DNA of 64,000 nt from Guptibacillus hwajinpoensis (GTDB lineage: Bacteria; Bacillota; Bacilli; Bacillales; Guptibacillaceae): contig NZ_JAIVAE010000003.1 in the NCBI RefSeq assembly GCF_020171785.1, positions 1-64,000 on the forward strand, given 5' to 3'. Each line of letters begins with the position of its first letter. Within the stretch, counting starts at the first letter, position 1. The notes below the pieces were generated by a model. It was given only the letters and a program-made list of their open reading frames with translations, made no database searches and was not told the DNA's origin. Below, piece by piece: positions 2,836-31,319 of this stretch. The position numbers were made by a program, and so were the translations under genes.

Positions 2836-3150
2836 GTGAAAAAAATAGAAACGGCAGATTCTTATCAGTCTTTCATTAACAATAAAGAGGTATCCATACT
2901 AAAATACGAAGCAAACTGGTGTCCTGATTGCAAACGACTTGATTTTTTTATTGATGACATCATGAATGTTAATCAAGATAAGTCCTGGGCTCAAATTGAC
3001 ATTGAACAGTTTCCTGAAATTACAGAGGAAAATAATGTTATGGGTATTCCTAGCTTACTCGTTTATAAAGATGGGAAGAAAATTGGTCACTTGCATAGCG
3101 CCAATACAAAAAATCCCGATCAAGTGAAAGAATATCTAAGTCAGTTTTAA
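2836..3150 (+). CDS. thioredoxin family protein
   Basis: I choose the GTG at 2836 because it is spaced 8 nt from GGAG; the ATG at 2830 sits too close to that site and the TTG-like upstream start has none. The 104-aa product is a single thioredoxin fold with the redox motif WCPDC (Cys29, Cys32) and the cis-proline segment GIPSLLVY near residue 77. Length is normal for a thioredoxin. No signal peptide, so it acts in the cytosol as a thiol-disulfide reductase. The CPDC motif differs from CGPC of TrxA, so this is an accessory thioredoxin. A terminator follows directly. Confidence 0.85.
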   Translation: MKKIETADSYQSFINNKEVSILKYEANWCPDCKRLDFFIDDIMNVNQDKSWAQIDIEQFPEITEENNVMGIPSLLVYKDGKKIGHLHSANTKNPDQVKEYLSQF

Positions 3151-3156
3151 TAATAG

Positions 3157-3189
3157 GAGAAGGTTGCATGTGCAATCTTCTCTTATTTT
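3157..3189 (+). terminator. intrinsic terminator
   Basis: A 12-bp stem with one G-T pair (3157-3168 with 3171-3182), then a T-rich tail. It ends the thioredoxin gene. Confidence 0.75.
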
Positions 3190-3568
3190 GTAAGTACATA
3201 TTCAACTGAGCCATCGTTAAGTGAATGAATGTAAGCAATTGAGTAGCCGATGCTAAGATAAATCCATAGCGTTTCGGTACATGAAGGATGGAGGGGCTCA
3301 GTTGGTGCGTAAAGACTTTTGTAGAGCACAGTTGTTTGATTGGAAAATGGTGAACAGTGGAGAAGTACGACATGTTTTCCACTCCAAGCCGTCCCGATTT
3401 GATGTCGTCTCATTACACTCATCCTTTAGGGTATTTTTAGTTTTTTTCAATCACCTGCAAAAATGAGAAGTTACTCGATTTAGATGGAAAGATTCATTTT
3501 GTTGATAGGAGTATCATATGATTCATGCATGTTGAATGATATGACTACGACATTATTTTAAAAATATT
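3190..3568. other. gene-less stretch, probably degraded DNA
   Basis: About 380 bases without a supportable gene. Open frames on both strands are short, lack ribosome sites and have low-complexity or unlikely compositions. One minus-strand frame (3183-3422) ends in a plausible-looking segment (GYSIAYIHSLNDGSVEY) that could be the tail of a lost gene, but I cannot name it. Confidence 0.4.
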
Positions 3569-3613
3569 TTGAATTTTTTCTGCGTAGCTGGTATATTAGT
3601 AACATATACCGGC
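3569..3613 (+). promoter_or_regulatory. candidate sigma-A promoter with overlapping dyad, for the riboswitch-sinI transcript
   Basis: TTGAAT (3569-3574), 17-bp spacer, TATATT (3592-3597). An inverted repeat, 3587-3596 with 3604-3613 (10-bp arms with one wobble, 7-bp gap), covers the -10 and the likely start point, which suggests a repressor operator. The regulator is unknown. The leader to the riboswitch would be about 95 nt. Confidence 0.5.
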
Positions 3614-3697
3614 AAACTTCTATTGTAAATTTGTAAATTCTTTAAAAACATGTAGGTTTTCTAGGAAAATAGTCGGTGCATGTCATTTCTTAATTCT

Positions 3698-3803
3698 CCA
3701 GATAAGGGCAAACCATTCTAAAGAATGGGACGCAAAGACACAGGTCTAATGTTGGGTCACCAACGATGACGGCTGGTCCTCCTGGAAACCCGATAAGGAG
3801 GAG
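3698..3803 (+). promoter_or_regulatory. cyclic-di-GMP-I (GEMM-I) riboswitch
   Basis: The hallmark strings are present in order: AGGGCAAACC, the capped P1b hairpin (CCATTC-TAAA-GAATGG), GGGACGCAAAG, then the second arm reading GGTCTAAT to GGCTGG. P1a can form between 3698-3708 and 3777-3785. The 3' strand of P1a contains TCCTCCT (3777-3783), which is exactly complementary to the downstream Shine-Dalgarno AGGAGGA (3796-3802). Ligand binding should hold TCCTCCT in P1a and free the ribosome site; without ligand it can mask it. I infer a translational ON switch. No terminator lies between aptamer and gene. Confidence 0.88.
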
Positions 3804-3809
3804 AAAAGA

Positions 3810-3962
3810 ATGACCATGGCAGAGATTAAGCCTAAGAAAGTACTAGATCAAGAATGGGTTATTCTCATGAGGGCTGCCCGGGAGCTTGGGTTACAAAAGG
3901 AAGAGGTAAGGTCATTCCTAAGACAAGGTAAAAAACCAACATCCACGAATGTACATAAATGA
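3810..3962 (+). CDS. SinI-family antirepressor, 50 aa
   Basis: The ATG at 3810 follows AAGGAGGAG with good spacing; an in-frame ATG at 3816 is a weaker alternative. Residues 11-42 match the SinI/SinR dimerisation domain: VLDQEWVILMRAARELGL followed by EEVRSFLRQGK, as in B. subtilis SinI (LDQEWVELM... EEIRKYL). SinI sequesters SinR, the repressor of biofilm-matrix and motility-switch genes. There is no DNA-binding domain, so it should work only by heterodimerising. It sits alone between the c-di-GMP riboswitch and a terminator, without sinR beside it. Too short for many gene finders. Confidence 0.85.
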   Translation: MTMAEIKPKKVLDQEWVILMRAARELGLQKEEVRSFLRQGKKPTSTNVHK

Positions 3963-3965
3963 TGA

Positions 3966-3988
3966 GCGACCAGTAAGGTCGTTTTTTT
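3966..3988 (+). terminator. intrinsic terminator
   Basis: A 6-bp stem (3966-3971 with 3977-3982, one G-T pair) running into seven T. It ends the sinI-like transcript 4 nt after the stop codon. Confidence 0.75.
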
Positions 3989-4030: not shown

Positions 4031-4084
4031 ATGTCATATCAATCTCATACATAACCATACTAACTATGAAGGACAAATAGTAAT

Positions 4085-4265
4085 CAGATAAACCTCATTG
4101 AAGCGATTCGGGGATGGTGCGAGCCCGAATAAGGTCTGATGAAACGGCGGTCTGGAGTTTACGTTCTGAAAGTGGATGCATGATATGCATCAACTAGGGT
4201 GGAACCGCGGGTGCATAAGCTCTCGTCCCTGGACATTTATTGTCCATGGAGCGAGAGCTTTTTAT
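4085..4265 (+). promoter_or_regulatory. T-box leader (glycine) of glyS
   Basis: The T-box core AGGGTGGAACCGCG is at 4196-4209, and stem I has a distal GGATGGTGCGAGCC element (about 4112-4125). A strong terminator follows: stem 4217-4225 with 4252-4260 extended inward, then a T run. A GGC triplet at 4146-4148 is the likely glycine specifier, though its pairing context was not modelled. Uncharged tRNA-Gly would favour the antiterminator and allow glyS transcription. Confidence 0.92.
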
Positions 4266-6375: not shown

Positions 6376-7791
6376 TTGTTGGATAAAAAACTTCGGTTTA
6401 TATTGATTACATTTTTGCTAGGTGTTTTTCTAGGTGCTCTTGATTCAGGCATCGTATCTCCTGCGTTAACCACCCTTATAGAAGATCTAGGGATTGACTT
6501 AAAATGGACGGTTTGGGTAGTAACGATTTATACGCTAGTCTATGCAGTAAGCATGCCAATTGTAGGGAAACTTGCTGATTTATTTGGGAGAAAGCGAATT
6601 TTCCTAACTGGTATTACGTTATTTGCCATTGGTTCTGTAATCGCTGGATTTAGTCAGTCACTTTCCTTTCTCCTTGTTGGTCGAGCGGTTCAAGCTCTCG
6701 GTGGTGGTGGCATTATCCCTATTGCAAATGCCGTAATCGGAAGCAGCTTTCCAAAGGAGAAACGGGGCATGGCACTCGGTTTTGTTGGAGCTATGTTTGG
6801 AATAGCGACGATTCTTGGACCAAATGTAGGAGGTTTTTTCGTTGCTCAGTTTAGTTGGAGATGGATATTCTTCATTAACGTCCCTATTGCACTTATTATC
6901 ATCATAATGGGCTTAAAACTTCCCGATGATCGAAAAGAGACAAAAAAACCTTCACTTGATTGGGGGGGAGCTGGTGTATTATCTTTTGTTATCATAAGTC
7001 TTCTACTGGGATTAACGAATCTTGATACAAATGAATTTGCGCAGTCGATCCAATCGCTCATGGTTTGGCCGCTTTTACTAATTAGTGTTGTATTTATTTA
7101 TCCACTTATTCGAGTGGAAAAAGCTGCAAAAGACCCGATTCTTAAATTAAGTTACTTTAAAGACCGGAATATCGTGTTAGCTTTACTCATTTCAATGATT
7201 ACAGGTATTGGCATAATTAGTATGATTTTTGTTCCTTCATTCTCAGAAATCATATTACTGCTGTCCAGAGGTCAAGGTGGGTACGTTATGACAATTCTGG
7301 CAGTAGCATCTGGTTTTGCTGCTCCTATAGGTGGAGTACTTCTCGACAAGTGGGGGGCAAAACAAGTTGTATTACTTGGCTTTTCATTAAGTCTTCTTGG
7401 TTCACTTTCTTTTGTTTATATAGCAGATGGATGGATCACACTATCTCTTGGGATGATTCTATCTGGTATAGGGATAGGATTCACTATGGGAACACCCTTA
7501 AATTATATTATTCTTGAGTTAACACCTGATCATGAAGCGGGATCAGCTCTATCTCTCGTAAGTTTGTTTAGATCGGTAGGTACTTCACTTGGCCCTGTTA
7601 TTCTTGCTGGTTTTATCGCTATGTCAGGAGCAACATTTAACGGAAGTAAAATGTCTGAAGCGATCAGAGATGTGATTTTATCCGGCTATCAACATATGTA
7701 CCTTGCTGCCTCTGTTATTTTCTTGATTGGTCTTATACTCGGAGTCTTTCTGAAGATGCCTCCCAAGTCTTCCAGCGTTCATAATTCATAG
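6376..7791 (+). CDS. MFS multidrug-type exporter, DHA2-like
   Basis: The ribosome site AAGGGGG (6363-6369) abuts the ATG at 6370 but is well spaced from the TTG at 6376 or 6379, so I choose TTG 6376 (471 aa). The protein is highly hydrophobic with about 12-14 predicted membrane spans. MFS motif A is GKLADLFGRKR between TM2 and TM3. The LDSGIVSPAL start of TM1 and ATILGPNVGG (motif C) point to proton-driven drug exporters of the EmrB/QacA group. Substrate unknown. A bidirectional terminator separates it from convergent gltC. Confidence 0.85.
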   Translation: MLDKKLRFILITFLLGVFLGALDSGIVSPALTTLIEDLGIDLKWTVWVVTIYTLVYAVSMPIVGKLADLFGRKRIFLTGITLFAIGSVIAGFSQSLSFLLVGRAVQALGGGGIIPIANAVIGSSFPKEKRGMALGFVGAMFGIATILGPNVGGFFVAQFSWRWIFFINVPIALIIIIMGLKLPDDRKETKKPSLDWGGAGVLSFVIISLLLGLTNLDTNEFAQSIQSLMVWPLLLISVVFIYPLIRVEKAAKDPILKLSYFKDRNIVLALLISMITGIGIISMIFVPSFSEIILLLSRGQGGYVMTILAVASGFAAPIGGVLLDKWGAKQVVLLGFSLSLLGSLSFVYIADGWITLSLGMILSGIGIGFTMGTPLNYIILELTPDHEAGSALSLVSLFRSVGTSLGPVILAGFIAMSGATFNGSKMSEAIRDVILSGYQHMYLAASVIFLIGLILGVFLKMPPKSSSVHNS

Positions 7792-31207: not shown

Positions 31208-31233
31208 AGTTAAGTACTAACTAAATCAATTTT

Positions 31234-31303
31234 ACTCGTATATTCTCAGAAATATGGTCTGAGCGTTTCTACCCGGTTCCCGTTAAAGTACTGGACTACG
31301 AGT
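31234..31303 (+). promoter_or_regulatory. purine riboswitch aptamer, guanine type
   Basis: P1 pairs ACTCGTA (31234-31240) with TACGAGT (31297-31303). P2 is CTCAGA/TCTGAG with the conserved AATATGG loop, J2/3 is GTTTCTACC, and P3 follows with the CCCGTTAA loop. The ligand-pairing position in the 3' junction (GGACTACG) is C, as in guanine sensors, not U as in adenine sensors. It would turn gene expression down when guanine or hypoxanthine is abundant. Confidence 0.93.
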
Positions 31304-31319
31304 TGAAGTATGCTGATAA

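Follow-up and report, generated by a model that had tools for sequence, protein, structure and literature searches.

What does an aptamer for c-di-GMP do directly ahead of a gene that encodes an antirepressor of only 50 residues? In B. subtilis, sinI is under transcriptional control by Spo0A; the phosphorelay commands the production of SinI, and the main action of c-di-GMP is on motility. The window analysed here, a stretch of 64,000 nucleotides from Guptibacillus hwajinpoensis, carries a different arrangement, in which a candidate c-di-GMP-I (GEMM-I) riboswitch stands immediately upstream of a sinI-like gene. We analysed this arrangement in the window, in the rest of the genome and in relatives of increasing distance.

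The aptamer and the sinI-like gene

The elements of the unit are the following.

3569-3597, forward strand: predicted promoter of the sigma-A type, hexamers TTGAAT and TATATT 17 nt apart, the second preceded by TG (9 of 12 matches)
3697-3785, forward strand: c-di-GMP-I (GEMM-I) riboswitch aptamer, full-length match to the RF01051 model
3697-3701, forward strand: 5' strand of helix P1a, UCCAG, five standard pairs with 3782-3786
3782-3786, forward strand: 3' strand of helix P1a, CUGGA, pairing with 3697-3701
3810-3962, forward strand: sinI-like gene (50 aa) with a Pfam SinI antirepressor domain
3964-3984, forward strand: predicted intrinsic terminator directly after sinI (8 pairs, 4 of them G-C, T tail)

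The GEMM-I aptamer named in the preliminary description was recovered by the covariance model: in a scan of the whole window, RF01051 scored 66.9 bits against a gathering score of 35 (E 6.6e-11). The core sequences GGCAAA and GACGCAAAG, named from the RF01051 model consensus, are present in the window aptamer according to the RF01051 alignment, and the corresponding columns were invariant or nearly so in 30 aptamers. The CCAG...CUGG of P1a was found again in the leaders of the genus, except in D_G006. Binding of c-di-GMP with a change of fold would be the function expected of this family. The c-di-GMP-I-GGC family (RF03167) belongs to the same clan as RF01051, but the window aptamer was reported under RF01051 instead.

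The product was likewise found to carry the SinI domain ascribed to it, with 42.1 bits against a cut-off of 31.4 (PF08671). The domain spans residues 12-38, no DNA-binding domain exceeded its cut-off, and all other Pfam matches of the protein were below theirs (Sigma70_r3, 15.3 against 25.3 bits; a NUMOD-like family, 11.6 against 27 bits). In a phmmer search the protein aligned with the solved SinI chains 5tmx_A and 1b0n_B (E 2e-4); the top match was 8v2d_J, a designed repeat protein, for which no single domain passes. Since its score for the Bacillus SinI equivalog NF046031 (37.9 bits) falls below the cut-off of 80, the window protein is, judged by these sequence scores, a SinI-domain relative and not an equivalog of the B. 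subtilis type.

No sinR adjoins the window copy, and the sinI-sinR operon order is therefore absent there; its neighbours, named by reading the sequence alone, are a thioredoxin-like ORF and a glycyl-tRNA synthetase-like ORF. The unit looks monocistronic because of a weak promoter match at 3569-3597 (shuffles average 2.1 such finds) and a terminator call right behind the gene (0.4 expected in shuffles). The promoter stretch was seen by eye in most, not all, of the aligned genus leaders. The start codon lies 24 nt past the aptamer, and the distance is 15-37 nt in relatives, two mis-assigned starts excepted. Within the SinI core of 28 codons, changes were in excess at the third codon position, both in the 14 window-type copies (18:9:44 at positions 1:2:3) and in 14 copies of a second, sinR-adjacent type (24:9:56). 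This excess, and the presence of both types of unit in 14 of 14 genus genomes, suggest that the window unit is more than a chance arrangement.

Two further RNA elements were seen in the window. A T-box leader (4057-4233, forward strand) ahead of the glycyl-tRNA synthetase-like ORF scored 84.7 bits, just under its gathering score of 93, and was therefore missed by the default Rfam scan. A purine riboswitch (31216-31318, forward strand) scored 78.7 bits.

Predicted occlusion and release of the Shine-Dalgarno sequence

Three segments of the leader would bear on the access of ribosomes to sinI.

3694-3699, forward strand: 5' anti-Shine-Dalgarno (anti-SD) strand UUCUCC, which overlaps the 5' strand of P1a and pairs with GGAGAA at 3800-3805 in the minimum-energy fold of 3690-3815
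3777-3783, forward strand: 3' anti-SD strand UCCUCCU, fully complementary to the SD, with an overlap with P1a at the last two bases
3796-3802, forward strand: SD AGGAGGA of sinI, 7 nt ahead of the ATG at 3810

The sequence confirmed that TCCTCCT at 3777-3783 and AGGAGGA at 3796-3802 are exact reverse complements, and UCCUCCU was unchanged in 13 of 14 genus copies, G001 having UUCUCCU. The preliminary description had taken TCCTCCT as the 3' strand of P1a; this holds for its last two bases (3782-3783), which lie in the drawn helix, and the remaining bases lie outside it. The leader (3690-3815) was more stable than its shuffles (z -2.49; 5 of 200 shuffles equally stable). In the free state of four fragments of the window leader, pairing of the SD was 0.40-0.70 to the 5' strand and 0.04-0.30 to the 3' strand, and the respective values were 0.12 and 0.78 in a fragment with different ends. 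According to these models, the SD can pair with the 5' strand UUCUCC, and does so more strongly than with the 3' strand in most fragments.

Folding with and without P1a constrained gave the outcome expected from the earlier reading. With P1a forced, the openness of the SD in the four fragments was 0.53-0.68, up from 0.18-0.30 without the constraint; the cost was 2.5-5.6 kcal/mol, which is well under the binding energy of a nanomolar ligand. The earlier proposal that high c-di-GMP locks TCCTCCT into P1a and so frees the SD thus needs to be modified: its ON sign was retained in the folding models and in relatives, but TCCTCCT is not the sole anti-SD, the 5' strand UUCUCC being another. P1a formation competes with either strand, so that an ON sign is predicted in both cases. 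A transcription-termination platform was considered for the window and rejected, as there is no terminator call between the aptamer and the ATG.

The leaders of relatives were folded in three overlapping sets, with models that ignore tertiary structure and the energy of the ligand. Among the 30 leaders of the first fragment set, where the probability of P1a without ligand was 0-0.06, forcing P1a raised SD openness in 29. In a set of 77, in which some SDs were mis-assigned, 71 leaders were raised, 61 of them by more than 0.1, and three were lowered by more than 0.1; from the 57 places behind this set, L060 had been omitted, as had nine places in L041-L048, whose genomes are those of the 30 family leaders. 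Start codons were chosen for the third set of 75 leaders, from which D_G004 and D_G006 were dropped because the script found no start, and in which L086 and L089 are still mis-assigned. Here forced P1a raised openness in 70 leaders, in 62 by more than 0.1, and lowered it by more than 0.1 in two, the mean going from 0.24 to 0.54. The five that were not raised are P_G006, L086 (probably a mis-assigned start), L056, L057 and L084; L080, L108 and L119 rose by only 0.01 or less. The outcome for a single leader depends on the fragment ends: P_G010 was the exception among the 30 leaders, and P_G006 was one among the 75. From a sample drawn over the whole order, 18 of 20 leaders were analysed (L153 and L160 were dropped, no start being found; L152 and L158 appear to be the same as L061 and L054). 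Sixteen of the 18 were raised, 15 by more than 0.1, one was lowered by more than 0.1, and the mean went from 0.26 to 0.69; L151 and L162 were not raised.

Shuffling of the flanks weakened both occlusion (openness 0.27 in real and 0.38 in shuffled leaders, p 1.6e-4) and release (gain 0.27 against 0.12, p 0.0017) in 32 representatives, which were hand-picked from the 75 leaders and, being related, are not independent. In the case of the window leader, the shuffles were, if anything, more occluded (openness 0.11, real leader 0.30) and had the larger gain (0.29, real leader 0.21). The control is uninformative for this leader, whose 3' strand lies inside the fixed aptamer. The swap tests took their SD positions from the 77-leader folding, in which some SDs were mis-assigned. 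The test was significant for the 3' strand and SD (0 of 10,000 permutations) and for the best of both strands (P 1e-4). For the helix between the 5' anti-SD and the SD, a simple coevolution was not supported and no covariation is claimed, since neither the swap test for this strand (P 0.22, 27 representatives) nor the outer-pair permutation (3350 of 5000 permutations reached the observed value) was significant.

The relatives fall into two broad classes of platform. One has the anti-SD in the 5' strand, such as CAACCUCC:GGAGGUUG in Salibacterium and UCCUUCAG:CUGGAGGG in Fictibacillus; the other has a 3'-strand hairpin, CCUGAAAUAC...GUAUUUUAGG and close variants, as found in Metabacillus, Sutcliffiella and Mesobacillus. 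In both classes, P1a and occlusion of the SD are predicted by the models to be mutually exclusive.

Occurrence of GEMM-I ahead of sinI

The whole genome gave four GEMM-I matches and five SinI-domain matches, with three short SinI genes. One of the other aptamers (C4:188125-188222, reverse strand) lies directly ahead of another sinI and forms a second unit, which adjoins a SinR-like gene, the third sinI and a second SinR-like gene. The first SinR-like protein matched 1b0n_A, the B. subtilis SinR of 1B0N (107 residues, E 6e-40), and both SinR-like proteins retain the SinI-type C-terminal domain. A source of c-di-GMP is likely, because the genome carries nine GGDEF domains. The third sinI-like gene (L010 7014-7136, forward strand), between the two sinR-like genes, has no GEMM-I match; upstream of it, AAAGAACGTTTTGTTCTTT was read by eye as a possible SinR box. 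The other two aptamers of the genome (L011, about 3165-3251, and L012, about 2978-3068, both on the reverse strand) are followed by genes for a protein that looks secreted and for one of about 44 aa, respectively.

The window-type unit and the sinR-adjacent unit were both present in 14 of 14 genomes of the genus, as read by coordinates, and the one other family member searched has two units inside a single sinR locus. Over these 15 genomes, 30 of 62 GEMM-I matches lie directly ahead of sinI.

For SinR loci, a scan with SinR gave 132 relatives, and the best 80 were kept. The GEMM-I model was built from the 30 aptamers, and a match was called strong at E of at most 5e-10; it was counted as paired with sinI where a sinI match began within 60 nt downstream on the same strand. 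Among these best 80 of 132, 54 loci (55 places) had a strong GEMM-I with sinI; eight of the 54 are relatives in the window's own family, and the genera include Fictibacillus, Metabacillus, Sutcliffiella, Robertmurraya, Mesobacillus, Salibacterium and Pontibacillus. Rfam gave a c-di-GMP-I clan match in all 14 loci tried, one of them (L060) without a called sinI behind it, and RF03167 was the best match at 5 of 14 loci checked, with sinI behind each. Universality of the arrangement at SinR loci was rejected, as 26 of the same 80 had no strong GEMM-I with a close downstream sinI. The 26 include 13 Paenibacillus records (two from one contig), two Bacillus sp. FJAT isolates, L060 with a strong match and no called sinI behind it, L084 with a weak match, and L064, which seems to have a GEMM-I-sinI unit slightly past its flank. 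A permissive re-search of six SinR loci without a model match still gave no GEMM-I. As separate observations, the 3' end of the GEMM-I of L060 (4750-4841, reverse strand) runs, by eye, into an apparently truncated or frame-broken sinI, and L064 has an epsC RNA (6910-7021, forward strand) near a sinR locus without an adjacent GEMM-I.

The evenly drawn order sample consisted of 41 genomes, one from each of 39 other families and two from the window's family. GEMM-I was found in 34 of them and SinI in 27 at E up to 0.001 (26 above the Pfam cut-off). GEMM-I lies within 80 nt ahead of a same-strand SinI in at least 19 of the 41 genomes, that is, in at least 19 of the 24 that have both; at least 17 of these genomes come from families other than that of the window, no two of them from the same one. 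The SinI match of the pair in G035 is below the Pfam cut-off. Two units per genome were counted in G000, G001, G031, G033 and G052, the second unit of G000 and G001 being taken from the genus comparison. The paired units in genomes of other families are L156 and L157 (G031:C16), L158 and L159 (G033:C12), and L169 and L170 (G052); those of G031 are less than 1 kb apart.

Proposed switch, SinR and known systems

We consider it quite probable that the window unit switches on the translation of a SinI antirepressor in response to c-di-GMP. This reading is based on the family membership of the aptamer and of SinI, the gene order, its conservation, and the mutual exclusivity of the helices in the folding models. 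In the absence of ligand, the SD of sinI would be paired with nucleotides that belong to the P1a strands or adjoin them, either UUCUCC of the 5' strand with GGAGAA or UCCUCCU of the 3' strand with AGGAGGA, and the ribosome would be blocked. With c-di-GMP bound, the aptamer would close P1a (3697-3701 with 3782-3786) and withdraw the anti-SD nucleotides, so that the SD opens. SinI, once made, would bind to SinR through the C-terminal helices of the repressor and inactivate it. The genome would thereby have two c-di-GMP-gated sinI genes, the orphan unit of the window and the sinR-adjacent unit. We infer ligand binding, the sign in vivo, the binding of SinI to SinR and the biofilm output. A passage of the MogR paper (PMC7793685) mentions, from unpublished array data, that sinI is up at high c-di-GMP in B. 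thuringiensis, which agrees with the ON sign proposed here.

It is worth considering that the switch works but acts mainly elsewhere, on another SinR/SlrR-like regulator or on the timing of sporulation, and not on a biofilm operon through SinR. Besides two SinR-like proteins, the genome encodes another related HTH protein, in a polysaccharide locus, and it has three short SinI genes. Exact GTTCTNTNTACNGAAC palindromes occur in the genome only at the two sinR promoters: those of both sinR-like genes in L010 carry GTTCTATTTACGGAAC and GTTCTGTTTACAGAAC, the sole exact genome matches of the searched pattern, and GTTCTATTTACGGAAC was seen in each of the 14 genus stretches that follow the sinR-adjacent sinI. 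With up to 2 mismatches, GTTCTNTNTACNGAAC is not enriched genome-wide (148 matches against 168 in the control), which would also fit a target elsewhere. On the other hand, both SinR-like proteins keep the SinI-type C-terminal domain, and a related palindrome, GTTCTTTWTAAAGAAC, occurs with at most one mismatch at eight places in 4.24 Mb, three of them within one 10-kb polysaccharide locus, a clustering that was observed post hoc. The whole related pattern, with up to 2 mismatches, gave 38 matches against 25 in the control. The genes of this locus include those for Wzz, a flippase, a polymerase and a glycosyltransferase. Control of a matrix locus by SinR would fit this clustering of sequence motifs, though the locus has an HTH protein of its own. 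We regard a main target elsewhere as unlikely, though deserving of serious attention. The locus itself (L147 2554-12377, in C5) contains an HTH gene of SinR-like type and three SinR-like boxes that are nearly palindromic.

It is improbable, in our view, that the aptamer binds c-di-GMP silently while the output of sinI is set by the promoter and other factors. There is a precedent in the B. cereus group: according to PMC11218506, the natural GEMM-I Bc1 of B. thuringiensis binds c-di-GMP and leaves downstream expression unchanged, so that the presence of GEMM-I is no proof of switching. The six SinR loci without GEMM-I indicate that an adjacent riboswitch is not indispensable. The aptamer is, however, found next to sinI in 14 of 14 genus genomes and in at least 17 other sampled families, with platforms that overlap the SD, which argues for function. 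An OFF switch, in which the ligand would lower SinI synthesis, for example through an RNA fold or tertiary contact outside the models that hides the SD in the bound state, appears very improbable: GEMM-I of both signs are mentioned in B. thuringiensis (mcpA 'off', cbpA 'on'; a passage of PMC7793685) and forced P1a failed to open the SD in 5 of 75 and 2 of 18 leaders, but it did so in 70 and 16, respectively, and the anti-SD overlaps P1a in two different ways across lineages.

The recurrence of GEMM-I ahead of sinI suggests a direct link from the c-di-GMP signal to the motile-or-sticky decision. If the ON switch works as proposed, many Bacillales would tie SinR directly to c-di-GMP through RNA, biofilm control in Gram-positive bacteria would gain a direct second-messenger input, and it could be explained how c-di-GMP might raise matrix production without a protein effector. 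A broader hypothesis, to which we give an even chance, is that riboswitch gating of sinI is an ancient and widespread form of SinI-SinR wiring in the order, B. subtilis being exceptional in having no such gating. Two independently gated antirepressors in the genus of the window would then let one second messenger set the total dose of SinI against SinR without a protein receptor, and the 5'-strand and 3'-strand anti-SD platforms would have reached the same ON logic.

Among known systems, the window aptamer shares with the RF01051 class a full-length match above threshold and a position in cis ahead of a lifestyle-control gene; it differs in that its platform lies at the SD, no terminator being called between aptamer and ATG, and in that the gene downstream encodes a 50-aa antirepressor. 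With the SinI-SinR pair of B. subtilis (PDB 1B0N), the genome shares the SinI domain and a SinR-like protein, whereas the window gene lies apart from sinR and is below the SinI equivalog cut-off. A control panel that included B. subtilis gave no RF01051 match. In the open PMC literature we found no mechanistic study of a c-di-GMP riboswitch with sinI, and a 2015 RNA-seq paper (PMC4342826) was the sole precedent found in print. Its Table 4 has a row for (c-di-GMP)-sinI, BMMGA3_08510 of Bacillus methanolicus MGA3, which shares the riboswitch ligand class and the gene name with the window unit; this precedent consists of the row and one sentence, which give neither mechanism nor direction. Beyond that entry, the present analysis offers a proposed ON platform, a pair of units per genome, and occurrence in at least 17 more of the sampled families. 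The riboswitch class is thus known and its target had been listed; the proposed ON mechanism, the doubling and the order-wide spread are added here.
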